This document shows positions 4,690 through 35,507 of a stretch of DNA of 64,000 nt, piece after piece; within the stretch, counting starts at the first letter, position 1; each line of letters begins with the position of its first letter. A program made the translations under genes and the position numbers. Source of the DNA: Oceanicoccus sagamiensis (GTDB lineage: Bacteria; Pseudomonadota; Gammaproteobacteria; Pseudomonadales; Dasaniaceae); NCBI RefSeq assembly GCF_002117105.1, contig NZ_CP019343.1:992001-1056000 (forward strand), read 5' to 3'. Under the pieces are notes generated by a model. That model ran no database searches. It was given only the letters and a program-made list of their open reading frames with translations, and had not been told where the DNA came from.

Positions 4690-5898
4690 TTAAGAAGTAA
4701 GGGCATCCCCTTTGGACCAATTTCGCTGTACCGAACCGGCCAGAAAGAACAGCACAATCATCAGCAGGGCACAGACATAGAAGGAACCATGAATATAAAT
4801 ATAGGTAAATACCGCCCCAGTCAGCAAGGTACCTACACAGCGACCCAAAGTACCCATGGAATTGAAGACACCCATGACCATACCTCGCTCGGTATGCCCG
4901 GCGCGCTGGGAAATAAGGCTTTGTGTACCGGTCATCACCACCGCGCTGGAACCTGAAACAAAGGCCATCAGGATATAGACTAGCCAGATTTGTTGCATAT
5001 CAGCCGCTATCGCCATGCCTATCAAACCGGCACCGTAACCCAATGCTCCGGCCTTAATCAGGACATGCTCACCAAAGCGCCGGGTTAAGGGGCCAACTAA
5101 ACCGCCCTGCACCACCGCCAGCGTAATACCGCCGGCCAACAAGAAGGGCACCAGTCCCTGCGGCCCATCAACCAGTGCCGCCCCTTCATAACTGGCCCAG
5201 ATAGGAAACACAGCTTCAAAGAAACCCGCAGCAATATTGTAGGCAAAGCCCGACAAAATTACCTTTCGCGCCAGCGGGCGCCGCATTACTTCAACAATCT
5301 CTTTTATCCGGCTGGTTTTAGGCTCGGCACGCAGTGCATCGCGATGTTTTTTATCCAGGCTTTCAGGCAGGGCAAATACAACCGCCAGAAAAGCCGTAAA
5401 GGACAAGGCGCCAGACACATAAGCTGGCAAGACAAAATTGGCATTTTCAAAATCATCACCCGCCAGGTAGCTACCCAGCGCAGGCCCCAGAATAAACCCC
5501 AAACCAAAGGCGGCCCCGATAAGCCCCATCGCCTTGGCTCGGTCTTCTTCCTTGGAGACATCGGTCATATAGGCTTGAGCCGCCGCCATATTGCCCGCCA
5601 TAGCCCCACTAATAAGCCGTGCCACTGCTACCATCCAAAGGGAGCTGGCATTGGCCAAAATCACATAGCCAACCGTTGCCCCCAACATACTCAACATCAA
5701 TACCGGGCGGCGGCCATAGTAATCACTGATACGGCCAAGAATAGGCGTGGTAAAAAACATGGCCACGGAGTACAAGCCCATCAGCACGGTCGCCAATGCC
5801 GGTGAGGCACCCAGATTCAGCGCATAGAACGCAAAGATAGGCACCATAATGCCAAAACCGATCAGGTCGATAAGGATGACGAAAAAAGCAACAAACAT
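4690..5898 (-). CDS. MFS transporter, TetA/drug:H+ antiporter-like
   Basis: Inner-membrane carrier of 402 residues with about 12 hydrophobic segments. The loop 2-3 signature appears as GRISDYYGRRPVL, and the first helix (DLIGFGIMVPIFAFYALNLG) resembles the TetA/multidrug branch. Substrate unknown: efflux of a drug or pathway intermediate is the usual role, but uptake cannot be excluded. It is divergent to the flavin-reductase-like gene; the shared 241-bp gap holds a long inverted repeat and a pair of direct repeats that look regulatory. First gene at the left edge of the catabolic island. Confidence 0.88.
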   Translation of the reverse strand: MFVAFFVILIDLIGFGIMVPIFAFYALNLGASPALATVLMGLYSVAMFFTTPILGRISDYYGRRPVLMLSMLGATVGYVILANASSLWMVAVARLISGAMAGNMAAAQAYMTDVSKEEDRAKAMGLIGAAFGLGFILGPALGSYLAGDDFENANFVLPAYVSGALSFTAFLAVVFALPESLDKKHRDALRAEPKTSRIKEIVEVMRRPLARKVILSGFAYNIAAGFFEAVFPIWASYEGAALVDGPQGLVPFLLAGGITLAVVQGGLVGPLTRRFGEHVLIKAGALGYGAGLIGMAIAADMQQIWLVYILMAFVSGSSAVVMTGTQSLISQRAGHTERGMVMGVFNSMGTLGRCVGTLLTGAVFTYIYIHGSFYVCALLMIVLFFLAGSVQRNWSKGDALTS

Positions 5899-5913
5899 AA
5901 AAGCTCCGAAAAC

Positions 5914-5950
5914 CAGCCATCAATAATTGGATATTATTGACTGATGGCTG
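5914..5950. promoter_or_regulatory. Long inverted repeat just upstream of the MFS start
   Basis: CAGCCATCAATAAT and ATTATTGACTGATGGCTG are inverted copies, except for a four-base insertion in the right copy, around a TGGAT loop. The element sits 16 bp before the MFS start at 5898, so in the leftward mRNA it would be a leader hairpin; as DNA it could be an operator. It could occlude or precede the ribosome binding site. Confidence 0.45.
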
Positions 5951-6040
5951 CAGGCCTGCGCACTTAGGACTTAAGCCTGTGCGACAAACACAATAAATAA
6001 GGGGTAAGCATTAACATAACTTGACTCGCTAGTGTTTGAG

Positions 6041-6088
6041 CAAGTTGACATAACAATATACCATTTGTGGACAACTTATATAACAATA
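6041..6088. promoter_or_regulatory. Two direct repeats, candidate operator
   Basis: CAAGTTGACATAACAATA (6041-6058) and CAACTTATATAACAATA (6072-6088) are near-identical direct repeats about 31 bp apart in the divergent promoter region of the MFS (leftward) and flavin-reductase-like (rightward) genes. Read on the minus strand both give TATTGTTAT, which also occurs at 31612-31627 and resembles motifs at 9605, 14426 and 28090. Binding of a common regulator is inference. Confidence 0.5.
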
Positions 6089-6139
6089 AAAACGGCAGCC
6101 ACTGGATATCTGCGCTGCCCTGTAAACCGGTGACACACA

Positions 6140-7036
6140 ATGTTTGGATGGTTAAAGAAAAACCGTAAGATAAACACCTTTAACGAGGAGTTTGTCAAAA
6201 ACCCTCACAGGGATAACTGGTATCAGGCCAACTCCTATTACCCGCTGCCCTTTGCTCTGGTCACCACCGTTGATGAGAACGGTAAAACCAATATTGGCCC
6301 CCATTCGTTTACCATGCCCTATGGTGTTATTAGTGATTATTCTTTAGTGCTGATTACCCGACATAATTCCAATACGGCCATTAACCTGACTCGGACCAAA
6401 AAATGCGCCCTGCATTTTATTGAGTACGATAAAAAGCACTTAAAGACCGTCGTGGGTTTGGGCTACCCTGGCCAGACCACCGAAGAGAAAATGGCACACC
6501 AGGACTTTACCTTTATTGACAGCCCCACCGAGGGCAGAGCCAGCGGTGATGGTATTCACCCCCCTTTAATTAAAGAAGCCATTCAAGTCTATGAATGCAC
6601 TCTGGACGAGTCGGTGAACTTTCACTATAACGAAGCCTCATCAACACGGCACTTTATTATTAAGCTGGAGAATATTCTGCTGAAAGAAAGCTGGCATAAA
6701 AATATTAATAACGACAACCCGATGATGCCTAACCTGCCTATCTCCTATGGCTTTAGAGACGGTAAAGATTTTTGGTTTACCCAGCACGGCAAACCGTTTT
6801 CCATCCCTACACCTACCGACCGCGGGCCAAAGTCAGCAGCCGTTATTTATACCGCCAACCGTATGGATGATGATGTAAAGTTTACCGATGAAGCCTGCGA
6901 AAAGTTGACCGGTGTACCCAGGGTGTTTTTGAAAACGGCATTAAATGGCATTATTAAAAAGGCCAAACAGGAAGGGGTTACCTTAGTCGATGAAGCATTT
7001 GTTGACCGGATTAATAGTGAGCGCAATAAAAAATAA
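6140..7036 (+). CDS. Flavin-reductase-like FMN-binding protein with PCP_red-like C-terminal tail
   Basis: 298 residues. The N-terminal ~200 residues match the flavin reductase / flavoprotein oxygenase split-barrel family: SYYPLPFALVTTVDENGKTN, then NIGPHSFTMPYGV, ITRHNSNTAINL and a long barrel tail. Such proteins bind FMN and either supply reduced flavin to a monooxygenase or act as oxidoreductases. The last ~50 residues (FTDEACEKLTGVPRVFLK and on to VTLVDEAFVD) resemble the PCP_red domain known from the C-terminus of dark protochlorophyllide reductase subunits. That fusion is unusual. First gene of a rightward unit; it ends 5 bp before the stop of the convergent MFS gene. Physiological role unknown; supplying flavin to oxygenases in this island is inference. 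Confidence 0.82.
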   Translation: MFGWLKKNRKINTFNEEFVKNPHRDNWYQANSYYPLPFALVTTVDENGKTNIGPHSFTMPYGVISDYSLVLITRHNSNTAINLTRTKKCALHFIEYDKKHLKTVVGLGYPGQTTEEKMAHQDFTFIDSPTEGRASGDGIHPPLIKEAIQVYECTLDESVNFHYNEASSTRHFIIKLENILLKESWHKNINNDNPMMPNLPISYGFRDGKDFWFTQHGKPFSIPTPTDRGPKSAAVIYTANRMDDDVKFTDEACEKLTGVPRVFLKTALNGIIKKAKQEGVTLVDEAFVDRINSERNKK

Positions 7037-7054
7037 GACGCCTACGCGTCTTTT
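7035..7054. terminator. Compact hairpin between convergent genes
   Basis: AAGACGC/GCGTCTT forms a 7-bp stem with a CTAC loop followed by four T on the plus strand. It overlaps the stop codons of both convergent genes (stops at 7036 and 7042). The short T-run makes it a weak intrinsic terminator. Confidence 0.5.
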
Positions 7055-8223
7055 CGCCAATCCGTCTTCAGTGCCACCCACGCAGCGGGAATAGCAATGA
7101 CCGCTGCCAGTATAAAAACGGCCTTTAAATCATAGTAACTATACACCAGCGCCATTAACATGGGACCCAGCGTTTGCCCAACGCGAAACACAAAACTATT
7201 TAAGGTCAGATACGACGCGGTCATTCCCTCAGGGGCCAAACGGGTATGCAAAGCCATAATGGACGGTACTGCCAAACCATGCCCCAAACCCAGCCAGGCA
7301 CAGGCCAATAACACCCACCCTAATTGATCGGTAGATTGAAAGAGATAGAAAGCCCCCGCATAAGTGAAGTACGCAAAAGCCAACACACGATGAAAACCAA
7401 ATTTTGCATGGATAGCACCCAATCTAAACGCCACCACCCCGACCATGGCTGAGAACAAAGACATGGCAAAACCAATAATAATTTCGCGCTGAAAACTCAA
7501 ACCAAAACTGTCGATAACCGGGGAAAAGGTCTGTGTTAAGTACAAGGCATAAAAGGTAAGAAATGCACCGCCCATCATAATAAATGAAGTGAAGTTTAAA
7601 TACGCCGCCAACATCACCCGGCGGTCGGTCAAGGAGCGCAGCAAGTTTTTTAAATACTGACGCGTATCCAGGTCGGTAAGCTTTTCGCTATAGTTTAAAA
7701 ACAACTGATTATAGATAGCGATAGGAATGGCGACGGCACTCAGAAAAAATGGGTAGCGCCAGGAACTGGCCACCAACAGCCCACCTAATAGCGGAAACAA
7801 CACCATACCGATACTATTAACAGTCATATTATAACCAAAGTAACGAACACGCTTTGGGCCCTCAAAGATATCGGTAATCATGGTGGTACTTAATGTACCT
7901 AAAGCCGAAGAACCTACACCTTGAATAAAACGCCAAAAGATCAACCACTCTAACGAGTTAGTTAAACCGCAAGCAAAACCAGCAATACCAAAAATATACA
8001 ATGAGGGGATTAACAATTTTTTGCGGCCAAACTTATCAGCGATCAGCCCCATAAACGGCGCAACCAATACCGTCCCCATAGTAAAAGCGGTAATAATATA
8101 ACCAATATTAGCCTTATCAATCGCCAGCGCTCCAGCAATCAACGGCAAGGCGGGCGCAATGGTAAACACCCCCGCCATAGACAGGGAGGTGACCAAATAA
8201 ATACCCAGCAAATTTTTATTCAA
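7042..8223 (-). CDS. MFS transporter
   Basis: About 393 residues with 12 predicted membrane helices and the MFS loop motif GLIADKFGRKKLL after helix 2. FWRFIQGVGSSALGTLS marks helix 4. The start is probably the TTG at 8223 (MNKNLLGIYLVTSLSMAG), preceded by GAGGTG; an in-frame TTG four codons upstream at 8235 destroys that Shine-Dalgarno. A strong terminator for the upstream monooxygenase gene lies immediately before this start, so its expression probably depends on readthrough or an embedded promoter. Likely moves a substrate or product of the island; direction and substrate unknown. Confidence 0.86.
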   Translation of the reverse strand: MNKNLLGIYLVTSLSMAGVFTIAPALPLIAGALAIDKANIGYIITAFTMGTVLVAPFMGLIADKFGRKKLLIPSLYIFGIAGFACGLTNSLEWLIFWRFIQGVGSSALGTLSTTMITDIFEGPKRVRYFGYNMTVNSIGMVLFPLLGGLLVASSWRYPFFLSAVAIPIAIYNQLFLNYSEKLTDLDTRQYLKNLLRSLTDRRVMLAAYLNFTSFIMMGGAFLTFYALYLTQTFSPVIDSFGLSFQREIIIGFAMSLFSAMVGVVAFRLGAIHAKFGFHRVLAFAYFTYAGAFYLFQSTDQLGWVLLACAWLGLGHGLAVPSIMALHTRLAPEGMTASYLTLNSFVFRVGQTLGPMLMALVYSYYDLKAVFILAAVIAIPAAWVALKTDWRKDA

Positions 8224-8240
8224 TCTACACCTCAAGCAAT

Positions 8241-8275: not shown

Positions 8276-8303
8276 AATCATAGACTAAAAGTCAGGTCGG
8301 CTA

Positions 8304-9506
8304 TTACTTAACCGCCAAACTATCTCTGACGCAGTCAATCATCGCTCTTTCCATCACAAAGGCTTTGGCCTTAACAGGATCAGCGGCCGTTTCCATTAGC
8401 ATTTTTTGCCTTGCGGCCTGCACATCGGTTTCAGTCGATTCCATAAGCTTTTTATTAGTAATGGTATGTTCCTGAACAAACTTAACCGCCAACTCACGGC
8501 GCTGCCGATCGTAATGCTTGAACTTCTCAATATAGTCCGCACCGCCATTGATAATCTCAACCAGTTTGACTGCCAGGTTATGAGCATCATGCAAACCGCC
8601 GTTCATACCCATACCACCCAGCGGGTTGTTAATATGGCAAGAGTCGCCGGCCAAGACAATACGGTCGTTAAAATAGGTTTCTGATACGCGCTGGTGCACA
8701 TTGTATAGCGTGCGGTGGCCAATATCGTAATCCCCTTCTTTGCTATGCAGATGATTTAACCGCTCCTGAATATACTCATCAGACAAATAGGTTTCATCAG
8801 AAATAGAGGACTCGGTTGGCCAGAGTACACGCCACTTTTTCTCGGTACGTAAAATCACACACCACTCATCAGGGTCGGCAACATAGTTAACATAGGCCAG
8901 GTTATCGAACACCTCTTCAAACGGAAAATCCGTGCTAACTACCAGAAACTTCTCATCGTAAGTAAAACCGCCATAACCAATACCAGCGGATTTACGTACA
9001 TTACTGGAAGCGCCATCACAGCCTAATAAGAAAGGCGTGACTAAAGTGTCGACACCGCTGGGCGTTTCTACATCAACTTCTACACTATCGCCGTTTTGAC
9101 GGCTATCGATCACCTTATTGCAGAAGCGCACGTCAACATGAGGGTAATCTTTCAACATCTCATTGACGATCAGCGTCATTTCATACTGCTCAAGCTGAAG
9201 CCGGAAGGGAAAAGGGGTTTCGTCGGCAACAATGGCCATATCGAACTCAGCCACTTCATTGGTTTGACGATCACGGTATTGATACTTGGTGACCACAAGA
9301 CCTTTGGCTACCAACTTTTCAGTCACGCCCAGCTCATCCAGCATTTCCAGCGAGGGTGGGTGAAAGGTAGAGGCCCGCAGATCGATGGGGATGGCAGCTT
9401 CTTTTTCCAGCATGATCACAGGGATATCGTGCTGCGCCAAATAAAGGGCCAATAAAGACCCAGCAGGGCCTGTGCCCGCAATTACAATCGGTTGATTAAT
9501 GCTCAT
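8304..9506 (-). CDS. Class A FAD-dependent aromatic monooxygenase
   Basis: 400 residues, the normal size for p-hydroxybenzoate hydroxylase-type single-component flavin monooxygenases, which hydroxylate aromatic or heteroaromatic rings using NAD(P)H and O2. The three family fingerprints are present: GTGPAG (11-16) for the FAD dinucleotide fold, the DG motif LLGCDGASS (D164-G165), and the GD motif LAGDSCH (G287-D288) followed by NPLGGMGMNGGLHDAHNL. No C-terminal thioredoxin-like extension is present. Faces its own terminator and has a 229-bp leader region shared with the TonB receptor's terminator, containing a TGTTATAACA palindrome at 9605-9614. Substrate unknown; a nicotinate- or phenol-type ring is plausible but unproven. 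Confidence 0.9.
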   Translation of the reverse strand: MSINQPIVIAGTGPAGSLLALYLAQHDIPVIMLEKEAAIPIDLRASTFHPPSLEMLDELGVTEKLVAKGLVVTKYQYRDRQTNEVAEFDMAIVADETPFPFRLQLEQYEMTLIVNEMLKDYPHVDVRFCNKVIDSRQNGDSVEVDVETPSGVDTLVTPFLLGCDGASSNVRKSAGIGYGGFTYDEKFLVVSTDFPFEEVFDNLAYVNYVADPDEWCVILRTEKKWRVLWPTESSISDETYLSDEYIQERLNHLHSKEGDYDIGHRTLYNVHQRVSETYFNDRIVLAGDSCHINNPLGGMGMNGGLHDAHNLAVKLVEIINGGADYIEKFKHYDRQRRELAVKFVQEHTITNKKLMESTETDVQAARQKMLMETAADPVKAKAFVMERAMIDCVRDSLAVK

Positions 9507-9735: not shown

Positions 9736-12213
9736 CTAGAAGTTGTAGCGCAAGCTGGCGCCGTAGGTTCTTGGTGGAGCATTAAAACCTACGTAGCCGC
9801 TATATACCGGGATATCAAGCCCCGACAACAGCTGCTCTTCGTCAGTCAGGTTTCGCGCCCACAATGTCGCTTCCCAAGCTCCGGTAATATCTTTAATCCC
9901 CATACGCAGGTTAAAGATATTGGTGGCATCATTTTCCAGGTTAGGATCAAGATCCTGCGCCAGATAATAGGAATCGGTGTAGATATATTCCAAACGTGCG
10001 AAGTACATATTACCACCCAGAATCTCAGCTACATTTTCATACTGAGCAAAGGTACTTAAGGTCAACTCAGGGGCATTATCCAGCTCTTCACCACCCAGAT
10101 CATTTTCACACACAGCCTGACCTGCAAATTGAGGCGGTAAATCATCTCCATTCAATGCTGCAAGAAGGTTTAGTGGATAAGGTGCCGTTATATCAGCGGG
10201 AACTTGCCAATTGTTAAACTGGTCTTGATAGGCCAGGCCCTTATTGTCGGCAGTACACTCGCCATCATCGAACTCGTCATATTCTGCTTTGTTGTAACCT
10301 AAAGAACCACCCAGCGATAAATTCACGGTTGGCACATACTGCAGTTCCATTTCCAAACCATAGCTGGTCAGATTACCTGCGTTACGCACATTGATCGAGG
10401 TACCGTCAAAAGTCTGGGACTGAAAGTCTTCATAGTCTACATAGTACAAAGAACCGTTAAATTGCAGGCCACCATCAAGGAAGGTGCCTTTCCAACCCAG
10501 CTCATAGTTTGTTGAAGTTTCATCATCAAACTCACCCTCAACACCGCTGGCTGTTCGCTGCTGGTTAAAGCCGCCGGATTTAAAACCACGGCTGATGCTA
10601 CCGTAGTACATCACACGGTCATCAGTAAAATATCTAACGGTAATGGTGGGTGAGACATTTTCTTTTGAGCGACTTTCGTCAACGAAAATATCAGGACCAA
10701 AAGGTGGAGCGTCCCGAGGTGGTACCGGTGTAGTAATCTGCGAACCTTCACGCTCTTTGCGCTCATAGGTATAACGCAAACCTAATGTGGTACTTAGCTC
10801 ATCGGTTATATTCCAGGTTGCCTGACCAAAGGCTGCGTAGTTTGTCGTCTCATGGGTATTGGTATCAATATTTGTCACCTCACCATTGGCATCAAAGAAG
10901 CTATTGTTAGGCAAAAATGCTGAGGGATAAATAAAGGATGGCGGATAACCCAAATCTGGCCAGTTAAAGTAGCCAATCAGCGGGCTATTGGTGATTTGCG
11001 CTGCGGCTTCGGTATCACCCAGCATGCTAATCGTGCCTATAGTTTCCATATCAGAATAGTAATAATAAACACCGACTTGATAATCGACTGTCTCACCTTC
11101 GGGTGAAGCAATTCGGAATTCGGAGGACTGCTGTTCATGGTCAACTTCAGTAGCGCCAATACCGCCGTTATAGGCCGAGAAATCTGAGTCAAATTCACTA
11201 TAGGAATCATAAGTACGGTAGGCATTGATCCAGGTAAGGATAAAGTCATTATCTAAATCTTTTACCCACTCAAGCGCAATACCCTCGACCTCAACATTGT
11301 TGGTGTAGGGTGCGTCGGCATAGAGCTTACGATCAAACTCATCCACTGCCGGCAAAGGCTCACCCGTAGCCGCAGCCAAAGATGAAAAAGGTAAATTCAA
11401 ACCCGAAGTACCTTCATAACCAATTACATCAGGCGCACAACATACGGAATCATCTTTAGACTTATCGACAGAAAGGGTAAATGAACCCAGGTCATCCGTT
11501 TCTAATAAGGCACGCGCTTTAATGCCCCACTTATCGGCATCATTCAGTTCTTGCTGATCTGCACCCGGGGCAATATTGTCATCAAAACCATCACGCTCTA
11601 CTTTGTAGGCGGACACCCTCATCGCACTGCCATTATCATCAAAGGGGATATTAATCATGCCTCGAGTTTCAAGGGCATCATAATTACCCACAACCACTTC
11701 GGCGGCCCCTTCAAACTCGCCCACGGGGGCTTTGGAAATAACACTGATGGCACCAGCGGCGGTGTTCTTACCGTACAAGGTACCCTGTGGACCACGCAGT
11801 ACTTCCACTCGCTCGATATCCATAAAATCACCCAGGCTCATACCGGCCCGGCCTTGATAAATACCGTCAATAAACACACCCACACTTGGGTCAATACCGG
11901 CATTGGTTCCGGTTGAACCAATACCCCGGATACGGATGGACGTATCACGGCTGCTGCTTTGGGAAACGATTTTCAAACTCGCGGCATAATTTTCCAGATC
12001 TTTAAAGTCGGTAATACCCGCATCTTTAAAAAAGTTCTCGTTAAATGCAGCAATAGACATTGGCACATCTTGCAGCATTTCCTGGCGACGGTTTGCCGTT
12101 ACAATAATTTCTTCTACGGTAGCAAACTCACTAACCTGAGCCTGAGCCAGCCCTGTATAACTAATACTTGTGAGCGCGATAGCTGCAGCAAGAGCGGTAT
12201 TTAAATTTCGCAC
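9736..12213 (-). CDS. TonB-dependent outer membrane receptor
   Basis: 825-residue outer membrane beta-barrel transporter that imports a scarce or bulky substrate using TonB/ExbBD energy. An N-terminal signal peptide (ALAAAIALTSISYTGLAQAQ) is followed by a TonB-box-like EEIIVTA, a plug domain (about 45-160, including RIRGIGSTG, GVFIDGIYQGR, RVEVLRGPQGTLYGKNTAAGA) and a long barrel ending in the aromatic terminal strand YGASLRYNF. The barrel resembles the large marine receptors often found with catabolic clusters rather than siderophore receptors with known names. GTG start at 12213 with GGAGAG upstream. Monocistronic: terminator after it and a 350-bp gap before it. The substrate is presumably the island's growth substrate or a precursor. 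Confidence 0.93.
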   Translation of the reverse strand: MRNLNTALAAAIALTSISYTGLAQAQVSEFATVEEIIVTANRRQEMLQDVPMSIAAFNENFFKDAGITDFKDLENYAASLKIVSQSSSRDTSIRIRGIGSTGTNAGIDPSVGVFIDGIYQGRAGMSLGDFMDIERVEVLRGPQGTLYGKNTAAGAISVISKAPVGEFEGAAEVVVGNYDALETRGMINIPFDDNGSAMRVSAYKVERDGFDDNIAPGADQQELNDADKWGIKARALLETDDLGSFTLSVDKSKDDSVCCAPDVIGYEGTSGLNLPFSSLAAATGEPLPAVDEFDRKLYADAPYTNNVEVEGIALEWVKDLDNDFILTWINAYRTYDSYSEFDSDFSAYNGGIGATEVDHEQQSSEFRIASPEGETVDYQVGVYYYYSDMETIGTISMLGDTEAAAQITNSPLIGYFNWPDLGYPPSFIYPSAFLPNNSFFDANGEVTNIDTNTHETTNYAAFGQATWNITDELSTTLGLRYTYERKEREGSQITTPVPPRDAPPFGPDIFVDESRSKENVSPTITVRYFTDDRVMYYGSISRGFKSGGFNQQRTASGVEGEFDDETSTNYELGWKGTFLDGGLQFNGSLYYVDYEDFQSQTFDGTSINVRNAGNLTSYGLEMELQYVPTVNLSLGGSLGYNKAEYDEFDDGECTADNKGLAYQDQFNNWQVPADITAPYPLNLLAALNGDDLPPQFAGQAVCENDLGGEELDNAPELTLSTFAQYENVAEILGGNMYFARLEYIYTDSYYLAQDLDPNLENDATNIFNLRMGIKDITGAWEATLWARNLTDEEQLLSGLDIPVYSGYVGFNAPPRTYGASLRYNF

Positions 12214-15585: not shown

Positions 15586-15690
15586 ACCTTTTATTCGGCT
15601 TTTCGCATTGCTGTCTGGGTGAATATCTGTGATCCCTCTTTTTCACACCCCTGATACCCAAGCCCTCACTCTTCAAGTTCCGGCAGTCTT

Positions 15691-15760
15691 GTAGGGTGGA
15701 TTATAATCCACCAAACCCACACAAGAGCCGTCATCACCGGTGGATTACAATCCACCCTAC
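15691..15760. repeat. Dispersed palindromic repeat, paired arms
   Basis: Left arm GTAG plus GGTGGATTATAATCCACC and right arm GGTGGATTACAATCCACC plus CTAC, separated by about 26 bp. Each core is itself an 18-bp palindrome (one imperfect). Lies in the 221-bp gap between the convergent TRAP binding-protein and permease genes. Confidence 0.9.
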
Positions 15761-15806
15761 GGGCTAACAGAAATGCCAGTAGCAGCATGCGAAATCGGGA
15801 ATAAGA

Positions 15807-17060: not shown

Positions 17061-17063
17061 GCC

Positions 17064-23475: not shown

Positions 23476-23476
23476 A

Positions 23477-28342: not shown

Positions 28343-29686
28343 ATGTCCACTGCCACTGCACCCGCATCCAACAATACCTTTCTGGGCTTTATTAGCCTTC
28401 AGGACGGCGTTAACACCGGTAATATGATTACCTTTTACTTCGCCTGCTTGCTGGGCATTATGCTGGCGGCTTTCACCCCCCAGTTACAGCCTTATATTCT
28501 GGATGAGTTCCTGAATATACCGGCCTCCGAACAGGGCATGATCAGTGGTAATTTGGCTTTTTATGGCGAAATCACCATTATCCTGACCACCGGCCTATGG
28601 GGCACCATGTCGGATAAATTTGGCCGCAGACCACTGATGGCAGGTAGTTACTTAATTGTCGCCCTGAGTATGTACCTCTACCCCCGCTCAGAAACCTATG
28701 CCGAACTCGTTTTTGCCCGCATTATCTTTAATGCCGGTATCGGTATGTATAGCTGCATTATCATTACCCTGATGGCTGACTATGTGCGGGATAATAGCCG
28801 CGGCAAGGCCACTGGCCTACTGGGCATGGGCAACGGCCTTGGCGCTATGATCAGTGTATTCCTGCTATTACAGCTCCCCGCCATCTTCCAGGAACAGGGC
28901 ATGACGCCGATTGAAGCGGGTTACGCCACCTACCATGTCGCTGCCGTTATCGCATTATTCGCCGCTGTAGGTATGTGGTTTGGCCTGAAAAAAGTGGAAG
29001 TGGTGCACGAGGAAGGTGCCGAAACTGACAGCATGCTTAGGCTGGCGCAAAAAGGGCTAATCGCCGCTAAAGACCCCGGCGTAGCACTGGCTTACGGCGC
29101 ATCATTTATCGCCCGAGGCAATGTAGCACTGGTGGGTACTTTCTTTACCCTCTGGCTAAAACAATACGGCATTATCGAACTGAATATGAACAGTGCCGAA
29201 GCTTTGGCTAAAGCCGGTATGGTGCTAGGTATCGCTCAGGGTATTGCACTACTTTCAGCGCCGGTCTTTGGCATTATGACTGACCGTATTAATCGCACCA
29301 CCGCATTGATTATTACCTTAGTCGTTTCCGTTGCAGGCTATATGGGCACTTATTTTATTACCGACCCCTTTGCCAGTGGCATGTTAATTTGCGCGGCCTT
29401 AATTGGTATGGCTGAGGTGGGTTGTATTATTACCAGTGCGGTTTTGATTGCGCAGCAGACGCCGTTAAATATTCGCGGCTCGGTAATGGGCTTTTTCAAC
29501 CTCTCTGGCGGCGTTGGTATTTTGGTTGGCGCTGTTGCGGGCGGTTGGTTATTTGATAACTGGTTGCCACAGGGGCCGTTTGTCTTTATTGGCGGTGTAG
29601 CGCTGCTGGTATTAATTTGGGCGATAGCTGTCAGGCATAAAATTGTGCCACTGAATCAGCAGGCCGATGCTGGCGCCGCTCATTAA
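28343..29686 (+). CDS. MFS transporter
   Basis: 447 residues with 12 predicted membrane helices. GTMSDKFGRRPLMAGSYLI is the MFS loop 2-3 motif; VFGIMTDRINRTTALI is its counterpart in the second half. The large first periplasmic portion (QPYILDEFLNIPASEQGMISG) and overall pattern are of a metabolite transporter rather than an obvious drug pump. Divergent to the nitrilase operon, and followed by a palindromic repeat and a bidirectional terminator. It is the third island MFS gene family member with no clear substrate. Confidence 0.87.
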   Translation: MSTATAPASNNTFLGFISLQDGVNTGNMITFYFACLLGIMLAAFTPQLQPYILDEFLNIPASEQGMISGNLAFYGEITIILTTGLWGTMSDKFGRRPLMAGSYLIVALSMYLYPRSETYAELVFARIIFNAGIGMYSCIIITLMADYVRDNSRGKATGLLGMGNGLGAMISVFLLLQLPAIFQEQGMTPIEAGYATYHVAAVIALFAAVGMWFGLKKVEVVHEEGAETDSMLRLAQKGLIAAKDPGVALAYGASFIARGNVALVGTFFTLWLKQYGIIELNMNSAEALAKAGMVLGIAQGIALLSAPVFGIMTDRINRTTALIITLVVSVAGYMGTYFITDPFASGMLICAALIGMAEVGCIITSAVLIAQQTPLNIRGSVMGFFNLSGGVGILVGAVAGGWLFDNWLPQGPFVFIGGVALLVLIWAIAVRHKIVPLNQQADAGAAH

Positions 29687-29710: not shown

Positions 29711-29781
29711 GTAGGGTGGATTATAATCCACCAATTCCTACCCACTAGCGTTAACAACCGGTGGATTATAATCCACCCTAC
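29711..29781. repeat. Dispersed palindromic repeat, paired arms
   Basis: GTAG plus GGTGGATTATAATCCACC, a 27-bp centre, then GGTGGATTATAATCCACC plus CTAC. Both cores are perfect palindromes. It sits between the MFS stop and a terminator. Confidence 0.92.
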
Positions 29782-29852: not shown

Positions 29853-30632
29853 TTAGAACTCTTCTAACAAACGACCTTTGCCTTGGATTTTATCGTTAAT
29901 GCCACAGGCCCGCAGTGCATGCCAAACAGTCGCAATATTGATAGGGATTAACGGCTTCTCTAACCAGTGCTCCAGCGTTGGGAACAAATCAACCGTTGAT
30001 AAGTTAGTACCACACTGCAAGATTGCATCAACATCATCGCCATCAACTTCCTTTACCGCATCCATCACTTCTTTGATAGATGTTTCGGCAATCGCTGTAG
30101 CTGAAGGACGGTTTAAACCCTTAACGTGCTTAACGTTGTAGCCTATTTCAGTAAAGTACTGACGCACATTATCGTCACCTACCGGTGGATAAGGTGTGAT
30201 AACCGAAATGGTTTTAGCACCAAAATTTTGCAGCGCTTCATGGCTGGCAGTCGCACCGGTGGTTAAACCAAAACCTTCTGGCAACTGGTCACGTACTGCT
30301 TTTTCAAATTCGATATTACCTTCAATACCGCCCCAGAAAGTTTCAGCTGACATACCCAGCATCAGGTGTGAGATTTTTGAGCTCATCACATTATCAATCG
30401 CTGGCGGCATTTCGGTACGCATTAATTCCAGAAAGCGTTCAAACACGGCATTTTCGGTATCACCGGTTGCGGCTTTTTCGTCGGCCCAGTTTTTTAGCTC
30501 AATCCAGAAACGCGAAGGGTGCCAGGTGACTCCGTCTAAACCAAATTTTTGTAAGTCGTATTCCACACCGGTGTTAGTTGATGGAATTAATACGCCGATT
30601 TGCGCACGGCGAGCTATTTGATAATTATCCAT
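29853..30632 (-). CDS. Maleate isomerase / arylmalonate decarboxylase family enzyme
   Basis: 259 residues, Asp/Glu racemase superfamily. The N-terminal IGVLIPSTNTGVEYDL is the family's first substrate loop; the C-terminal half (DAILQCGTNLSTVDLFPTLE, then VWHALRACGI and GRLLEEF) aligns with the end of arylmalonate decarboxylase. Maleate isomerases and racemases use two cysteines. Here the second is present (Cys207) but the first site reads LGMSAETFWGG with Gly93-Met94-Ser95, as in the single-Cys arylmalonate decarboxylase (GTS). Decarboxylation of a malonate-type acid is therefore at least as likely as maleate isomerisation. Single leftward gene between a terminator and a palindromic repeat. 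Confidence 0.85.
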   Translation of the reverse strand: MDNYQIARRAQIGVLIPSTNTGVEYDLQKFGLDGVTWHPSRFWIELKNWADEKAATGDTENAVFERFLELMRTEMPPAIDNVMSSKISHLMLGMSAETFWGGIEGNIEFEKAVRDQLPEGFGLTTGATASHEALQNFGAKTISVITPYPPVGDDNVRQYFTEIGYNVKHVKGLNRPSATAIAETSIKEVMDAVKEVDGDDVDAILQCGTNLSTVDLFPTLEHWLEKPLIPINIATVWHALRACGINDKIQGKGRLLEEF

Positions 30633-30749: not shown

Positions 30750-31550
30750 TTAAATATCCATGCCTGCAAACAGGTCGCGCTTTACCACTAAATTCTTTAA
30801 GAAACGCCCGATAACCTTGCCAGTGGTTAACCACTCGACCTTGGCACCGTCTTTTTCATTGGCCAAAATATTATCGACTAACCACGGGGTGACGGTTTCT
30901 ACTTTATCCGCGAGAATATTGAAGGTCTTTCTCACCTTCTGCCACTCTTCAGAGCTGGTATCGTATTCACCAATTAATAAATCAGTTAAGACCATGCCAG
31001 GGCTAACTGTACAGATTTTTACACCGCTATCGGCGGCATCTTTGGCCAGCGCCTTGTTCAAGTAATTGACCGCGCGCTTAGTCGCACCATAAATCGCCAA
31101 ACCAGCCTGGGCCATACCATTGCTGCCAAAACCTTCCATATTCCAAATCTGACCATTACCTTGGGCTGCCATACCTTTCATAGCCACCTTATTGGCATAA
31201 ATCAGGCCGGTCAGGTTGGTTGCGACAATACTCTCAATCTCGGCATTATCCGCCTCCCAAAAAGGCGCATTATCCAGCGTTCTACCGGCATTATTCACCC
31301 AGTGGTCAACTGTACCGAAATTGGCTACAGCGCAGTCCCACAGGGCTTGCAGGTCATCATAGGAGGCCACATCACAGGCGGTACCAGCTACGCGCTCAGC
31401 GCCATACTCCTTACCCAACTCTTCCACTGCCTCTTTGACTTGTTGGTCGTTTCGGGCGCTAACCACCACATTACAGCCGCGCTTAAGGAAGTTTTCAGCC
31501 ATACCTCGGCCAATACCACGGGTACTACCAGTCACAACAACGGTTTTCAT
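30750..31550 (-). CDS. Short-chain dehydrogenase/reductase, NYC1/NOL-like
   Basis: About 266 residues. Classical SDR with TGSTRGIG (7-14), NNAG (86-89), Ser143, Tyr154 and Lys158 (YGATK), so an active NAD(P)-dependent oxidoreductase is expected. The segments NMEGFGSNG, VSPGMVLTDLL and FNILADKVETVTPWLV recall plant chlorophyll(ide) b reductases of the NYC1/NOL type as I remember them, though such SDRs also occur in non-phototrophs. ATG at 31550 is chosen because GGAG precedes it; an upstream TTG would include that site in the coding region. Divergent to the lipocalin-like genes. Confidence 0.88.
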   Translation of the reverse strand: MKTVVVTGSTRGIGRGMAENFLKRGCNVVVSARNDQQVKEAVEELGKEYGAERVAGTACDVASYDDLQALWDCAVANFGTVDHWVNNAGRTLDNAPFWEADNAEIESIVATNLTGLIYANKVAMKGMAAQGNGQIWNMEGFGSNGMAQAGLAIYGATKRAVNYLNKALAKDAADSGVKICTVSPGMVLTDLLIGEYDTSSEEWQKVRKTFNILADKVETVTPWLVDNILANEKDGAKVEWLTTGKVIGRFLKNLVVKRDLFAGMDI

Positions 31551-31611
31551 AAAGATGTGCTCCAAGGGATTATTCTTTATAGTGGCGGGAATAATTCTGA
31601 CATAGATAATC

Positions 31612-31627: not shown

Positions 31628-31665
31628 GGCTTTGCCGTCAACTATATTCTTGCTGGAACAATACC

Positions 31666-32271
31666 ATGAAACCTTACCCTACATTCCCAATTGGCTCCGT
31701 TGGTTACAATATGATGCTGATGCGCGGCACCTGGCACGACCATATTGAGCTATACAACCTTGATGGCACACCGCTAAATACCGATAGCGATCTGGGTGCA
31801 GGCACCCCCGGCCCCAGCCCCTTTGATAATCTGGCCTATATCGACTTTGATGGCTATAACCTAAAGCTGACCAATGTCCATATCCGCGGCCGCGAACTGG
31901 CCACCAAAACCTTTGCCGCCAAAATGGAAGATGGGCTACTGGTATTTGATGAGCTTGGCCCTGGTGCGTTTAATAATGTCGGCGTTTCCGGTGGTCCGGG
32001 TATCCTGACGTTTAACGCCCTGGAAATGGGCAAGCATACGGATGTTTATCTGGAGCCTGACTTTATCGCCCTGACCGGCAATGGCCAAAGAATTCGCCAC
32101 ACGGTACTGTACCGCGACAAAGTTGCTGTACGCACACTAACCGCCAGAGGCACTCGCTTATCCCCTACCTGCGATGTGCGCCATCCCACCGACCCACGCG
32201 GCCCCGATGGCCCGGTTCATGGTGAAGTGTTTGTTTCACCGATTTGGCAACATCTGGTTGATGACGAATAA
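31666..32271 (+). CDS. Lipocalin-like protein of unknown function
   Basis: 201 residues, no signal peptide, so cytoplasmic. I do not recognise a characterised family. Alternating hydrophobic strands and a GTWHDHIELYNLDGTPLN start suggest a lipocalin/calycin-type beta-barrel, as in DUF3598-like proteins. RGTWHDHIELYNLDG aligns with TGEWHGYPSLFEADG of the next gene, and PDFIALTGNG with its GPDFIGSG and GPDMFGNG, so the two proteins are related. Such barrels bind hydrophobic ligands or act as isomerases/lyases. First gene of a rightward unit, 44 bp before the next gene. Confidence 0.65.
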   Translation: MKPYPTFPIGSVGYNMMLMRGTWHDHIELYNLDGTPLNTDSDLGAGTPGPSPFDNLAYIDFDGYNLKLTNVHIRGRELATKTFAAKMEDGLLVFDELGPGAFNNVGVSGGPGILTFNALEMGKHTDVYLEPDFIALTGNGQRIRHTVLYRDKVAVRTLTARGTRLSPTCDVRHPTDPRGPDGPVHGEVFVSPIWQHLVDDE

Positions 32272-32315
32272 AGACAATATTTTAAAATAGTAGAACACGA
32301 AAAAGAGGAAACAAC

Positions 32316-33287
32316 ATGTCAGACGATAAGAAGCCCAGTAATTGGCAGCAAGCCATCACCGGTGAGTGGCACGGCTACCCATCATTATTTGAAGCCGACG
32401 GCACCCACGTAGGCTACAACAAAGTAAGCCGCGCCAGTGAATTTAAAGATGGCCGTACCACCTACTGGATGGAAACCGACTTTGATGCCTTTGGTCCATT
32501 AATGACCCGCTTTGATTTAAACACCCGTTTTAACTTTGGTGTTATCGATTCAGATCAGGATCGTATTTACACCGGCCCTGACTTTATCGGTTCAGGTCGT
32601 CCCTTCGGCATGATGGTTGATTCTAACTACTATTCTCCTGGCTGGAATGTAGGCCTGCGCACAATGAACCACGTTGTGCCGGACCTGGGTATTCAGGTTT
32701 ACTCTTCACAGTTATTTGAAGGGGATACCATGGTGGGTGTCTTTAACGGTATCTACTGTGTATCGCAGGATTACGCCACCAACCCTGACACACAAAAGCA
32801 GGTAGAAGACTTCCTGCTACAGGAAAAGAAACTGGGCCGTAAAGCCTATAACCTGCCGGTTAAAAACGAAGGTAAATTTACCGGTGAGTTTGAAGTGTAT
32901 AACGACCAACAGGAATTAATTGGCCATAACAAGGTCACGATTCACCATAAGCCCATCAATCTGGTTCACTCTGAGCAGACCATTGAAATTGAAGGTGTGA
33001 TTAATCGCAAATGGACCGCCATGCGTACACGTACCAACAATAGCCACCAGTTCCACGGCCCGGATATGTTTGGTAATGGCTTTAGCTATGGCCGTTACTT
33101 GTACTCAACCCGTCACTCTTATGCAGAGTCATTTAAGTTGTGGTCACGTGAAGCGGTTGTTGATAGCAACTACACACAGGTTTGTACCTGGCAGTTTCTG
33201 GAGTCACAAAAAGAGAAGTATATGACTCACGGTACATTGACCTGGGAAGAAGGCGATGAAGTATTAGGCGCCCAGTACGTGGAGTAA
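32316..33287 (+). CDS. Duplicated lipocalin-like protein of unknown function
   Basis: 323 residues, no signal peptide. Two similar halves: ITGEWHGYPSLFEADGTHVG with YNKV and GPDFIGSG and DSNYYSPGW in the first, FTGEFEVYNDQQELIGHNKV with GPDMFGNG and DSNYTQVCTWQF in the second. Each half looks like one calycin-type barrel and resembles the 201-residue protein upstream. Ribosome site AAAGAGGAA precedes the ATG. Function unknown; ligand binding or an enzymatic step on a hydrophobic intermediate is a guess from fold and place. Confidence 0.68.
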   Translation: MSDDKKPSNWQQAITGEWHGYPSLFEADGTHVGYNKVSRASEFKDGRTTYWMETDFDAFGPLMTRFDLNTRFNFGVIDSDQDRIYTGPDFIGSGRPFGMMVDSNYYSPGWNVGLRTMNHVVPDLGIQVYSSQLFEGDTMVGVFNGIYCVSQDYATNPDTQKQVEDFLLQEKKLGRKAYNLPVKNEGKFTGEFEVYNDQQELIGHNKVTIHHKPINLVHSEQTIEIEGVINRKWTAMRTRTNNSHQFHGPDMFGNGFSYGRYLYSTRHSYAESFKLWSREAVVDSNYTQVCTWQFLESQKEKYMTHGTLTWEEGDEVLGAQYVE

Positions 33288-33308
33288 TCACTGCGTACTT
33301 TACCAAAG

Positions 33309-33336
33309 CGGAAAGCAGGCATGGGCTTGCTTTCCG
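33309..33336. other. Intercistronic hairpin
   Basis: CGGAAAGC and GCTTTCCG form an 8-bp stem around AGGCATGGGCTT, in the 73-bp gap between the duplicated lipocalin-like gene and the next gene. There is no T-run, so it is more likely an mRNA processing or stability element than a terminator. Confidence 0.45.
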
Positions 33337-33360
33337 TTACTGATTAAAAGGGATAATAAC

Positions 33361-33951
33361 ATGTTAAAAACACGCTCTGTCTTATTGCTGACACTCCTGC
33401 TCAGCTTGTTTTCTTCTGCCCTTACGGCTGAAATGGAAACCGTCAAAACCAAAAACTTTGAGGGTGATAAATTTGTTTTCCCGAAAGATATTAAAGGCAC
33501 GCCCTTAAGCCTATTATTTTTAGCCATGGGTAAAGATCAGGAAAACGGCACCCTACAGCAGCAACAGCAGATTGAATGGCACAAGGCATTAGCTGAAAAA
33601 GGCATATTGAATGAACAGGTAGCCGCCTACCACTTTCCAGTTATGGAAAGCCCACCCTTTTTTGTCAAAGGCATTATTAGAAGCGCCATGGCCGATGCCT
33701 ATGAAGGCACCGCCGACCTTAGTCAGTCCGGCGTGCTTTATATTGATGATCTGGAAGAGTTTGCCAAAGAAGGTGGACTAACACTGGATGAGTTGCCCAC
33801 GCTGGTTTTGCTTTCGGAAGACGGCAAGATAATCAAAGAATTTAAAGGCGTTTATTCTGAAGAATTAGCTACTGCCATTGCTGCGGCAATTAATGCTGAG
33901 CTTGCTCCCTCCGAGGAACAGGCGGCCGTGCCAAATACCCCTACCCCTTAA
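33361..33951 (+). CDS. Exported protein, thioredoxin-fold-like, no CxxC
   Basis: 196 residues. A clear signal peptide (LLLTLLLSLFSSALTAE) directs it to the periplasm. The mature part has a redoxin-like order: a strand PLSLLFLAMGKDQ, an internal helix, then TLDELPTLVLLSEDGKIIKEFKG, which resembles the cis-Pro and last strands of thioredoxin folds. No CxxC pair is present, so it is not a thiol oxidoreductase of the usual kind. A short Gln run (five Q) precedes a helix. The C-terminal tail is Ala/Pro rich. Function unknown. AAGGGAT lies just upstream of the ATG. Confidence 0.6.
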   Translation: MLKTRSVLLLTLLLSLFSSALTAEMETVKTKNFEGDKFVFPKDIKGTPLSLLFLAMGKDQENGTLQQQQQIEWHKALAEKGILNEQVAAYHFPVMESPPFFVKGIIRSAMADAYEGTADLSQSGVLYIDDLEEFAKEGGLTLDELPTLVLLSEDGKIIKEFKGVYSEELATAIAAAINAELAPSEEQAAVPNTPTP

Positions 33952-33983
33952 ATTCCTCCACCCCCTGCACGGACCCAATCATC

Positions 33984-34535
33984 CGTAGGGTGGATTGCAA
34001 TCCACCGGTCTGGTCGCTACGGGCAGGGCTTTGGTGGATTATAATCCACCCTACAATGTTTACGTAAACGGCTTATTACCTGGTCTGAGTATCGACTCCA
34101 GGCAGCAAAGTGCGGAGGCAGCCCCGTAGGGTGGATTATAATCCACCGATCTTGACGGCTACGGGCAGGGCTTTGGTGGATTATAATCCACCCTACAATG
34201 TTTACGTAAACGGCTTATTACCTGGTCTGAGTATCGACTCCAGGCAGCAAAGTGCGGAGGCAGCCCCGTAGGGTGGATTATAATCCACCGATCTTGACGG
34301 CTACGGGCAGGGCTTTGGTGGATTATAATCCACCCTACAATGTTTACGTAAACGGCTTATTATCTGGTCTGAGTATCGACTCCAGGCAGCAAAGTGCGGA
34401 GGCAGCCCCGTAGGGTGGATTATAATCCACCGATCTTGACGGCTACGGGCAGGGCTTTGGTGGATTATAATCCACCCTACGATTTTTAGGCCTTAGTTAA
34501 GGTATCGACTCCTGGCAGTAATGTGCGGAGGTAGG
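33984..34535. repeat. Tandem array of ~142-bp units built on the palindromic repeat
   Basis: Unit starts at 33984, 34125, 34267 and 34409 give periods of 141, 142 and 142 bp. Each unit holds two palindromic arms (core GGTGGATTATAATCCACC), a centre with GGGCAGGGCTTT, then a 72-bp stretch containing the palindrome GTTTACGTAAAC and GTATCGACTCCAGGCAGC. The middle copies are nearly identical; the first has a different arm core (ATTGCAAT) and the last has a decayed tail (GTATCGACTCCTGGCAGT). It fills most of the 589-bp gap between convergent genes. No gene is present. Confidence 0.93.
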
Positions 34536-34540
34536 AACGA

Positions 34541-35005
34541 TTAATTCAGTTTAATTTCTACGCTGGTTTTTTCGCCGGCAACTTCAACCACTGCCTTATC
34601 AAACTTCGGCGGCCCAGTCATACCCATTGGGGCGGAAAAACCAAAAGGCTCTTTCGGATAGCCAATAAAATTGGTATCTAATTCAAGGTCGCCATCCAGA
34701 TCATGGAACAGGGAAATGGCATAACCATCCTCTGGTAAATTGTCTATAACAATCACAATATCATCAGTGCTCGTAATTTCCTGAGATACATCACGAAAAG
34801 TTTTTACATCTTCGTCCGTCGACAACCAACCATCCGGTGAATTTTGTAAAGAGACATGAATAATACCCTTGGCATTTTCAATATTGGTAATAGTAATTTC
34901 CAGCGTACTCTGGCCTGAAGGCGCGACTTCAGCTGCATCAGCTTCTTCCGTCATGGCATGAGTTGATAGTAGCAGCGCCGTCATGGCGATTAGTATTTTT
35001 TTCAT
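34541..35005 (-). CDS. DUF2141 family exported protein
   Basis: 154 residues with a signal peptide (ILIAMTALLLSTHAMTEEADA). The mature domain has the DUF2141 pattern: LEITITNIENAKGIIHVSL, NLPEDGYAISLFHDLDGDLELDTNFIG in the middle (an acidic loop that could bind a metal) and YPKEPFGFS followed by an immunoglobulin-like end. Function unknown in general; members are secreted or periplasmic beta-sandwich proteins. Its stop codon lies 6 bp from the decayed end of the tandem repeat array. Confidence 0.85.
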   Translation of the reverse strand: MKKILIAMTALLLSTHAMTEEADAAEVAPSGQSTLEITITNIENAKGIIHVSLQNSPDGWLSTDEDVKTFRDVSQEITSTDDIVIVIDNLPEDGYAISLFHDLDGDLELDTNFIGYPKEPFGFSAPMGMTGPPKFDKAVVEVAGEKTSVEIKLN

Positions 35006-35162
35006 TATTTAATCATCCTGTAAATTCGTTAAAGAGCCAGATCCAGTATTCGGGTTAAGTATTATAGTGCCTGAACATGTTTCCAATGTTAACATGCTAG
35101 CATCCAAAATCTAAAGAGCAGACATTGGAATTTAGCTGCCAAATTCACATAAAGGTTTATCT

Positions 35163-35507
35163 ATGATTATTGTTGTCGCCAAAATACTGTTTGCCAATCA
35201 GGCTGATCGTGACCGGGCGGTAGAACTCTCCGCCCCTATCCAGCTAGCCACCAGAGAACAGGAACCCGGCTGCAACGCCTATTGCTTTGCCGCTGACCCC
35301 TGTGATCCGATGGCCATTCAGGTCTATGAGTCATGGCAGGATAGCGACTCACTGGTAGCCCATTTTGACCACCCTAACTATCTGGCTATGGTTGGGATGT
35401 TTACTGAAGTAGGCATTTTGGAGAGCATTAACCGGGCCTATCTGGCGGAGAGGGATGAGCCGGTTTACGGGCCGAATTTTGAAAAGAGAGAGGCATTTTT
35501 TAGTTAA
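35163..35507 (+). CDS. Antibiotic biosynthesis monooxygenase (ABM) domain protein
   Basis: 114 residues, one dimeric alpha/beta barrel domain: VVAKILFANQADRDRAVEL, TREQEPGCNAYCFAADP and IQVYESWQDSDSLVAHFDHPNYLAM are the usual ABM strands and helices, as in YgiN-type quinol monooxygenases. Members oxidise quinols or small aromatics without cofactor, or act as heme-degrading enzymes; which applies here cannot be told. Single rightward gene, followed directly by a palindromic repeat. It lies at the right edge of the catabolic island and may belong to it. Confidence 0.85.
   Translation: MIIVVAKILFANQADRDRAVELSAPIQLATREQEPGCNAYCFAADPCDPMAIQVYESWQDSDSLVAHFDHPNYLAMVGMFTEVGILESINRAYLAERDEPVYGPNFEKREAFFS

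Follow-up and report, generated by a model that had tools for sequence, protein, structure and literature searches.

The question raised by this locus is which compound its genes serve. We analysed a 64,000-nucleotide stretch (hereafter the window) of the 4.47-Mb single-contig genome of Oceanicoccus sagamiensis (the host), positions 992,001 to 1,056,000 of contig NZ_CP019343.1 (G000:C1:992001-1056000 in our numbering). The original prediction had placed in it, at positions 4690–35507, a ~30-kb catabolic island for an undescribed pathway, and the idea of such a pathway acting on a nitrogen-containing compound is supported here. We propose, with a probability of roughly 0.64, that the genes of this region belong to a catabolic system spread over several loci and acting on tetrapyrroles, most likely on chlorins derived from chlorophyll and on their linear phyllobilin-type products. 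The families, active-site motifs, predicted folds, conserved clustering and co-occurrence of the genes were observed, and from them we infer the substrate, the order and the direction of every step. The link to bilin reductases and to red chlorophyll catabolite reductase (RCCR), an enzyme of plant chlorophyll breakdown, was invisible from the window because the host copies of these genes lie outside it.

In related genomes, two reductase families were found between or beside the core genes of the locus: the RCCR family and a second one, designated X260. The first was recognised in a relative's cluster as Pfam RCC_reductase (PF06405, E 5.7e-21, over the cut-off), and its profile, compared with the PDB, matched Arabidopsis RCCR (E 1.6e-21) and, more weakly, phytochromobilin synthase, a plastid bilin reductase and PebA. 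All 12 sequences share the Asp of a C-terminal DPxN motif, a residue that is presumably catalytic, as in the plant and cyanobacterial enzymes. X260 sits between the genes of the double nitrilase (Nit) and the ACAD-fold flavoenzyme (ACAD). The best Foldseek match of its model (predicted local distance difference test, pLDDT, 92) was RCCR (E 7.6e-12), followed by PebA, PebB, HY2 and PcyA, with TM scores of about 0.5–0.8 to RCCR and the ferredoxin-dependent bilin reductases (FDBRs); the top 48 matches comprised RCCR, bilin reductases, two coproporphyrinogen oxidases and two chains of chloroplast motor complexes. The predicted fold of X260 fits the alpha/beta/alpha sandwich of RCCR and PcyA. Its acidic residues D107, in the middle, and D233, near the C-terminus, are invariant in 11 of 11 sequences and are presumably the equivalents of the catalytic Asp of PebA and HY2.

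The host itself encodes, elsewhere in its genome, three RCCR homologues over the PF06405 cut-off and one weak match. Pfam assigns the latter (C1:967174-967875), which lies 24 kb before the window, to the ferredoxin-dependent bilin reductases (Fe_bilin_red, E 5.3e-15); it is 27% identical to X260, with an Asn aligned to the second acidic place. The same-genus genome G003 carries an RCCR relic with one in-frame stop between its orthologues of two window genes, lipoA and lipoB; the gap between these genes in the window is only 44 bp. The lipoB copy beside the relic is fragmented, and a second, whole copy is found elsewhere in G003. PMC10151467 describes active bilin reductases in heterotrophs and notes that some Ca. 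Schekmanbacteria sequences fall with the RCCR outgroup.

The distribution of the hallmark gene lipoB follows that of the RCCR family. Among 293 relatives, PF06405 was found in nine genomes and lipoB in nine, and the nine are identical; random placement would give this with a probability of 2.6e-17, a figure that ignores kinship. The carriers span five genera and four families, and both markers occur in two of the seven same-genus genomes listed (host included). The gene for the class A FAD monooxygenase (FMO), searched at E<=1e-60, was detected in 14 of the 293: in the same nine at 58% identity or more, in G170 as a 65% fragment and in four genomes as distant copies at 32–39%. G269 is included in these three counts, and its region lies outside the fetched loci. 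A scan of genome_contigs by two peptide patterns only, which may miss carriers, returned 26 named lipoB loci from Halieaceae, Microbulbifer, Aestuariicella, Litorivivens, Paraglaciecola, Rheinheimera, Thalassomonas, Thalassotalea, Alkalimonas, Paraferrimonas and an Anaerolineales metagenome-assembled genome (MAG), L088. RCCR or X260 was present on 22 of the 26 loci (up to 10 kb fetched on each side of lipoB), that of L088 included, and PF06405 was over the cut-off in all 25 lipoB genomes searched (L090 was left out), at least five of which are also among the nine. In a sample of 350 genomes drawn from the class (the host and 349 others), PF06405 was found in two genomes besides the host and lipoB (E<=1e-20) in the host only.

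The enzyme core also recurs as a cluster. An ACAD query at E<=1e-60 matched 5 of 145 relatives (host included), and these five genomes, with three more fetched through the PF06405 search (G163, G231 and G242), were used for single-linkage family grouping. Six families occur in all eight genomes: lipoB (32316–33287, +), a short-chain dehydrogenase (SDR; 30750–31565, −), an Amd/EutA-fold enzyme (Amd; 29853–30632, −), Nit with its two CN_hydrolase stretches (26295–28004, −), an aldehyde dehydrogenase (ALDH; 23477–24910, −) and FMO (8304–9506, −). The SDR and ALDH groups take in paralogues, and the FMO of G003 in this grouping is a 33% paralogue, the 84% copy having been found separately. Seven of the eight genomes have lipoA (31666–32271, +), the MFS3 transporter (28343–29686, +), ACAD (24984–26267, −), an alpha/beta-hydrolase-fold protein (abH; 22690–23496, −) and an isochorismatase-type amidase (Isoch; 22076–22669, −). 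All these counts are lower bounds, since the open reading frame (ORF) caller kept the longest of overlapping ORFs and dropped some real genes: Isoch of G140 and abH of G103, both recovered by tblastn, lipoB of L076, seen in the genome_contigs scan, and probably ACAD of G231. The RCCR family is likewise found in 8/8, with the host copies at loci outside the window that were fetched after the PF06405 search. The clustering of the core is beyond chance, as it is seen again in three further families of the order, and the search for the same gene order suggested by the original prediction was positive for the core.

The clusters of relatives contain further genes. In the superlocus of G242 (HTCC2148), Pfam recognised two Polysacc_deac_1 proteins (NodB/PuuE-type), PEP_mutase/ICL, HMGL-like, CoA_transf_3, Aconitase_C, GST and a Rieske protein with VanA_C. 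Crp-type regulators are present in relatives, and rubredoxin–rubredoxin reductase fusions and flavin reductases adjoin lipoB in several of them. At L081:8305-9960 and in relatives, a double rubredoxin is fused to rubredoxin reductase next to lipoB; such a fusion is a possible electron donor for RCCR/X260 in place of ferredoxin. In the Anaerolineales MAG L088, genes for a hydrolase, a Rieske protein, X260, lipoB, SDR, HMGL, LeuC/D, a CoA transferase, ACAD and an amidohydrolase lie side by side. Unless this MAG is mis-binned, the arrangement suggests that the genes were transferred between phyla.

Several observations weigh against a tetrapyrrole system of this kind. No RCCR-type gene lies within the window; by sequence, the match of X260 to PF06405 is marginal; Glu154 of Arabidopsis RCCR, which we take to be catalytic, is not conserved in the bacterial alignments. 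Three of the eight grouped genomes (G163, G231 and G242) were selected for having PF06405, so that RCCR is there by selection. The FMO fragment of G170 stands in a genome without lipoB or PF06405, 4 of the 26 lipoB loci have no RCCR or X260 nearby (three of these genomes have PF06405 elsewhere, and the fourth is L090), and two incomplete genomes of one genus, G559 and G654, have PF06405 with no lipoB match at E<=1e-20. As to the steps known from plants, the Rieske proteins of two relatives match VanA_C/KshA_C and not the Pfam model of pheophorbide a oxygenase (PaO) at E<=1 and E<=0.01. The hydrolase of one relative matches the chlorophyllase family PF07224 at E 0.0016, under the cut-off, and two hydrolase homologues match general alpha/beta models only, with no chlorophyllase match. 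Staygreen was matched in 0/145 and 0/15 genomes, with no control genome matching either. NodB, LeuCD and ICL-like genes were unrecognised in the fetched host stretches. The physiological relevance of bacterial Staygreen homologues is called unknown in PMC8531759.

The proposed tetrapyrrole system could work as follows. TonB receptors would take up the pigment, and the hydrolase and the Rieske oxygenase encoded in relatives would dephytylate it and open the ring. The linear product would be reduced by the RCCR- and bilin-reductase-type enzymes (RCCR/X260), fed by ferredoxin or rubredoxin, and bilin-sized beta-barrels (lipoB, perhaps lipoA) may bind or process the intermediates. FMO, and the ACAD-fold oxygenase working together with a flavin reductase, would then cut the chain to monopyrroles through ring-carbon hydroxylation with loss of the substituent; HspB and PnpA swap a ring substituent for a hydroxyl. 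Nit and Isoch, in relatives also the NodB/PuuE-type enzymes, would release the imide or half-amide nitrogen, and ALDH and SDR would oxidise the side chains. Substituted maleate- or malate-type acids could enter central metabolism via the HMGL-like and CoA-transferase enzymes, joined in relatives by the aconitase-like (LeuCD) and PEP-mutase/ICL-like ones. The GntR regulator, plus the Crp-type regulators in relatives, would control the system. NodB/PuuE-related enzymes are known cyclic imide hydrolases (PMC9304392).

A bolder version of this scheme we hold only tentatively, at somewhat less than even odds. It says that heterotrophic bacteria, mostly marine-type gammaproteobacteria but also one or more lineages of Chloroflexota, have come through gene transfer to share a complete chlorophyll pathway from the outer membrane to central metabolism, in which macrocycle opening and RCCR/FDBR-type reduction would be followed by cleavage to monopyrroles by FMO and the ACAD-fold enzyme, a new nitrilase–amidase pair would free the nitrogen, dialkylmaleate-type acids would enter by hydratase/lyase or CoA chemistry, and lipoB would be a new pigment-handling double barrel.

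The pigment could also be a heme-derived or phyco-bilin (biliverdin, bilirubin or the phycobilins) degraded by the same kind of system, a reading we find unlikely, if worth keeping in mind. The Pfam-recognised bilin reductase near the window in the host speaks for it, and so do the fold of X260, which matches PebA, PebB, HY2 and PcyA as well as RCCR, and the sub-threshold NCBIfam matches of the window receptor, which include heme receptors. However, heme oxygenase (PF01126) was found in 0/9 carriers, whereas it was matched in 3 of 14 controls, and the reductase that every searched lipoB genome carries is RCCR-like; an outside source of bilin would lift the first objection. The phytochrome PHY domain (PF00360) was likewise found in 0/9 carriers, with one of 14 controls matching. 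Hence, the usual internal source of bilins and one of their usual users are missing in the nine carriers (bilin-binding globins were not searched for). Chlorophyll is favoured as the substrate because the reductase is RCCR-type and because maleimides and hematinic acid have been reported among the products of chlorophyll (PMC7318184).

More doubtful is the explanation that the core serves a small N-heteroaromatic compound (nicotinate, picolinate or pyrimidine-like) and that the RCCR link arises only from shared genome islands. The original prediction had pointed in this direction with its partial overlap with nicotinate and Rut logic, and this overlap held for one enzyme. In Isoch, D20, K107 and C140 each reach at least 95% conservation across 19 sequences, and the Asp-Lys-Cys triad of a NicF-type amidase is thereby intact. 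FMO has PnpA (183 bits) and HspB (149 bits) as its nearest solved relatives, and FMO homologues without RCCR exist as the four distant copies mentioned above and, as a fragment, in G170. Two other enzymes did not bear the analogy out. NicD uses Ser-His-Asp catalytic residues, and the NicD-like identity of abH was rejected, as in 11 of 11 sequences it has GHHTG at the nucleophile elbow and Tyr or Cys near the His place, hence neither the Ser nucleophile nor the catalytic His. NicE-type maleate isomerases use two Cys. The Amd protein has GMSAETFW or GYSAETFW, with no Cys, at the presumed place of the first one in 21 of 21 sequences and has the second Cys in seven of 21, so it is not a two-Cys isomerase of the NicE type. 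Neither a NicX-type ring-opening dioxygenase nor a RutA luciferase-like monooxygenase was found among the families of the window genes, as the original prediction had noted, and the RutB model reached 59.8 of 377.95 bits. A nicotinate- or Rut-type pathway was therefore rejected on motifs and family content. Against any N-heteroaromatic substrate stand also the exact co-occurrence of lipoB and PF06405 (9/293 and 25/25) and the interleaving of the genes in one cluster.

Apart from this comparison, Nit keeps E46/K118/C151 in its first domain, while the nucleophile Cys is absent from the second domain in all of the sequences displayed (14 out of 25); the second half is, by its residues, a predicted pseudoenzyme. 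ACAD is probably a flavin-dependent oxygenase. The lipocalin-like label of the original prediction holds for lipoB as a predicted fold. The model of lipoB (pLDDT 90.8) is a double beta-barrel, and its best structural matches are BFA1 (5yvf, E 3e-9, TM 0.56) and a Nostoc DUF3598 protein (2o62, TMt 0.65), both from oxygenic phototrophs. BFA1 is a chloroplast ATP-synthase assembly factor. As modelled, lipoB may bind or process a pigment. For lipoA, no relative was detectable in Pfam or the PDB.

That the reductases make a bilin chromophore, with the window genes unrelated to them, seems very improbable: FDBR homologues elsewhere do make chromophores, and the heterotroph pre-PcyA proteins sit with bilin-binding globins (PMC10151467), but PHY and heme oxygenase were not found in the nine carriers, and up to four PF06405 matches per genome lie amid oxygenases, hydrolases, CoA enzymes and importers. 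We give equally little credit to a loose mosaic of independent catabolic genes with no single substrate, for which the two separate blocks of G003 and the pairing of FADox, MCP and the TRAP permeases (see below) with G003 only would speak, but in three other families the core stays clustered, and in G103 a GntR homologue (70%) adjoins FMO.

The ~30-kb island of the original prediction is nonetheless composite; its core clustering stood, but it is not conserved as a single unit. Same-genus G003 carries the genes as two blocks ~136 kb apart. The left block (C2:2186201-2199910) contains DctP, GntR, VOC, the TonB receptor, FMO, MFS2, the flavin reductase and MFS1; the right block (C2:2336127-2357407) contains DctM, DctQ, MCP, FADox, SSS, Isoch, abH, ALDH, ACAD, Nit, MFS3, Amd, SDR, lipoA, lipoB and a thioredoxin-like gene. 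The 30-kb island is therefore a lineage-specific union of two blocks, A and B. By synteny with G003, their junction lies in the gap between DctP and DctM (15586–15806), where two copies of a repetitive extragenic palindrome (REP)-like sequence, GGTGGATTNNAATCCACC, are found at 15695 and 15739. The same palindrome occurs at 29715, 29760, 30680, 30718, 35517 and 35550, and outside the island at 56950, 56995, 59573, 59615 and 61121; the copies are mostly paired ~33–45 bp apart, and repeats of ~142-bp spacing lie at 33989–34476. Of the 12 other host stretches fetched, six contain it, and of five G003 stretches, none. Because copies are thus also found at other places in the host and in parts of the window beyond the island, these palindromes were ruled out as regulator sites, and a scan for short k-mers and palindromes gave no convincing GntR site.

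Family calls on the window genes were made by Pfam and NCBIfam scans, with matches listed at E<=0.001 and the flavin reductase and others rechecked at E<=10. They confirmed most of the families named in the original prediction: the TonB receptor, the TRAP system, three MFS carriers, the chemoreceptor and the GntR/UTRA regulator as well as the class A FMO, the ACAD fold, the flavin reductase, isochorismatase, alpha/beta hydrolase, nitrilase, the Amd/EutA-family member, ALDH, SDR and the FAD-linked oxidase. Block A begins with the MFS1 transporter (4690–5898, −; MFS_1, E 3.5e-62), 86% identical to its orthologue in G003. It is followed by the flavin-reductase-like protein (6140–7036, +; Flavin_Reduct, 29.8 bits against a cut-off of 27; 87% in G003), a possible supplier of reduced flavin that is not among the families common to at least three genomes, and by the MFS2 transporter (7042–8235, −; recognised by Pfam, 76% in G003). 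Beyond FMO lie the TonB-dependent receptor (9736–12213, −), with Pfam plug and barrel and its family in six of the eight fetched genomes, and the gene at 12564–13457 (−), VOC-like by eye. The VOC identity went unconfirmed: at E<=10, Pfam gave nothing above noise, and no relative was found in the PDB; its homologues are 41–42% identical in the G113 and G231 superloci and 76% in G003. The GntR/UTRA regulator (13530–14315, −; family in 5/8) and the TRAP solute-binding protein DctP (14554–15585, +), which in G003 stands far from DctQ/DctM, close the block.

Block B starts with the TRAP permeases DctM (15807–17060, −) and DctQ (17064–17561, −), at C2:2355657-2357407 in G003, the methyl-accepting chemotaxis protein MCP (17824–18987, +; MCPsignal) and the FAD-linked oxidase FADox (19040–20632, −), similar to VAO and D-lactate dehydrogenase; FADox, MCP, DctQ and DctM paired only with G003. 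The SSS symporter (20613–22054, −) was right as to family but is not an intact gene, being split over two frames (ORFs 21539–22054 and 20613–21542), where G003 has a single 485-aa ORF. The break sits in a TTA-rich stretch, and a sequencing error and a real loss are both possible. Downstream of lipoB are an exported thioredoxin-like protein (33361–33951, +; by eye, Redoxin only at E 0.025, 54% in G003), a DUF2141 exported protein (34541–35005, −; family in 6/8) and an ABM-domain monooxygenase (35163–35507, +; E 8.8e-8), which closes the stretch. Just beyond it, a small HNH protein (35825–36397) shows sub-threshold similarity to the HNH of IscB/Cas9d; a 78% homologue lies beside block B of G003 and a 40% one near the G231 superlocus. 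The PCP_red-like piece of the original prediction was listed neither for the flavin reductase (E<=10) nor for the other scanned window proteins (E<=0.001), and an Rfam scan of the window returned 0 families.

Outside the window, homologues of HMGL (59%) and the CoA transferase (68%) are encoded in the host at 907–910 kb, near a further FMO (48%) and a protein resembling X260 (28%) but unrecognised by Pfam; a flavin reductase, UbiD and a TPP enzyme are encoded at 961–967 kb. The system may thus extend to the left of the window. The run at C1:958524-967875 (L045), composed of MFS, SDR, an NAD-binding protein, Flavin_Reduct, the UbiD decarboxylase, the TPP enzyme and the bilin reductase, may form a further branch of the pathway. 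Its Flavin_Reduct protein, ~30 kb to the left of the window, has a sub-threshold PCP_red tail (28.3 bits against a cut-off of 32.5). A Rieske homologue (35–37%) is located at C1:2578887. Two paralogous sets lie at C1:3820902-3825163 and 640442-649578 (L020-L023), one arranged as Amd-FMO-Amd-ACAD and the other as ACAD-lipoA-hydrolase-luciferase-like-ALDH-cytochromes-DUF1838-MFS3 (some names by eye). At C1:3545034-3562763 (L047), a 5909-aa ORF stands a few genes from an RCCR homologue.

To our knowledge, enzymatic breakdown past linear tetrapyrroles is hardly known. The open-licence papers searched (most subscription journals lay outside this scope) showed no bacterial gene cluster for chlorophyll catabolism, which is weak evidence of absence, and nothing useful on dimethylmaleate enzymes. 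If the tetrapyrrole reading is true, bacteria feed on chlorophyll or similar pigments via an apparently undescribed gene set, and RCCR/FDBR proteins gain a catabolic role in bacteria. With lipoB and RCCR as markers, it would become possible to test what happens to the carbon and nitrogen of chlorophyll in genomes, metagenomes and several named strains; the named carriers include Microbulbifer agarilyticus, Pseudohalioglobus sediminis NY5 and Litorivivens lipolytica. The system would also supply odd enzymes: a half-dead nitrilase, an alpha/beta protein with GHHTG, an Amd-fold protein lacking the Cys pair, and lipoB. Chlorophyll is made and degraded at 10^12 kg a year (PMC7318184).

Among known systems, the nicotinate NicC-D-F-E and nicotine HspB routes share with the locus a class A FMO, an intact-triad isochorismatase-type amidase and members of the Amd and alpha/beta folds, but the window has no NicX-type gene, NicD Ser/His or NicE Cys pair, and the RCCR/X260 reductases and lipoB are foreign to the nicotinate route. 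Eubacterium barkeri has dimethylmaleate hydratase and dimethylmalate lyase. The aconitase-like and PEP-mutase/ICL-like genes of relatives could handle dialkylmaleates; the upstream steps and the setting differ. With cyclic imide catabolism (imidase and half-amidase) and Aspergillus HxnM/HxnN (PMC9304392), an imide/half-amide stage may be shared, as suggested by the NodB/PuuE-type genes and amidases of relatives, whereas NodB was unrecognised in the fetched host stretches. The ferredoxin-dependent bilin reductases, including the heterotroph pre-PcyA (PMC10151467), belong to the same superfamily as X260, by its predicted fold, and as the host protein at C1:967174, by Pfam; unlike in those systems, the nine carriers are without heme oxygenase or PHY and the surroundings of the genes are catabolic. 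The plant PaO/phyllobilin pathway shares the RCCR-family reductase, found in the host genome and in the lipoB genomes, and has counterparts of the Rieske and hydrolase genes in relatives' clusters. It differs in that the Rieske proteins of relatives are of the VanA_C/KshA_C type, Staygreen had no match (nor in any control) and the chlorophyllase match fell below the cut-off, and in contrast to the plant pathway the bacterial set is joined to importers and to enzymes able to carry carbon and nitrogen into central metabolism.

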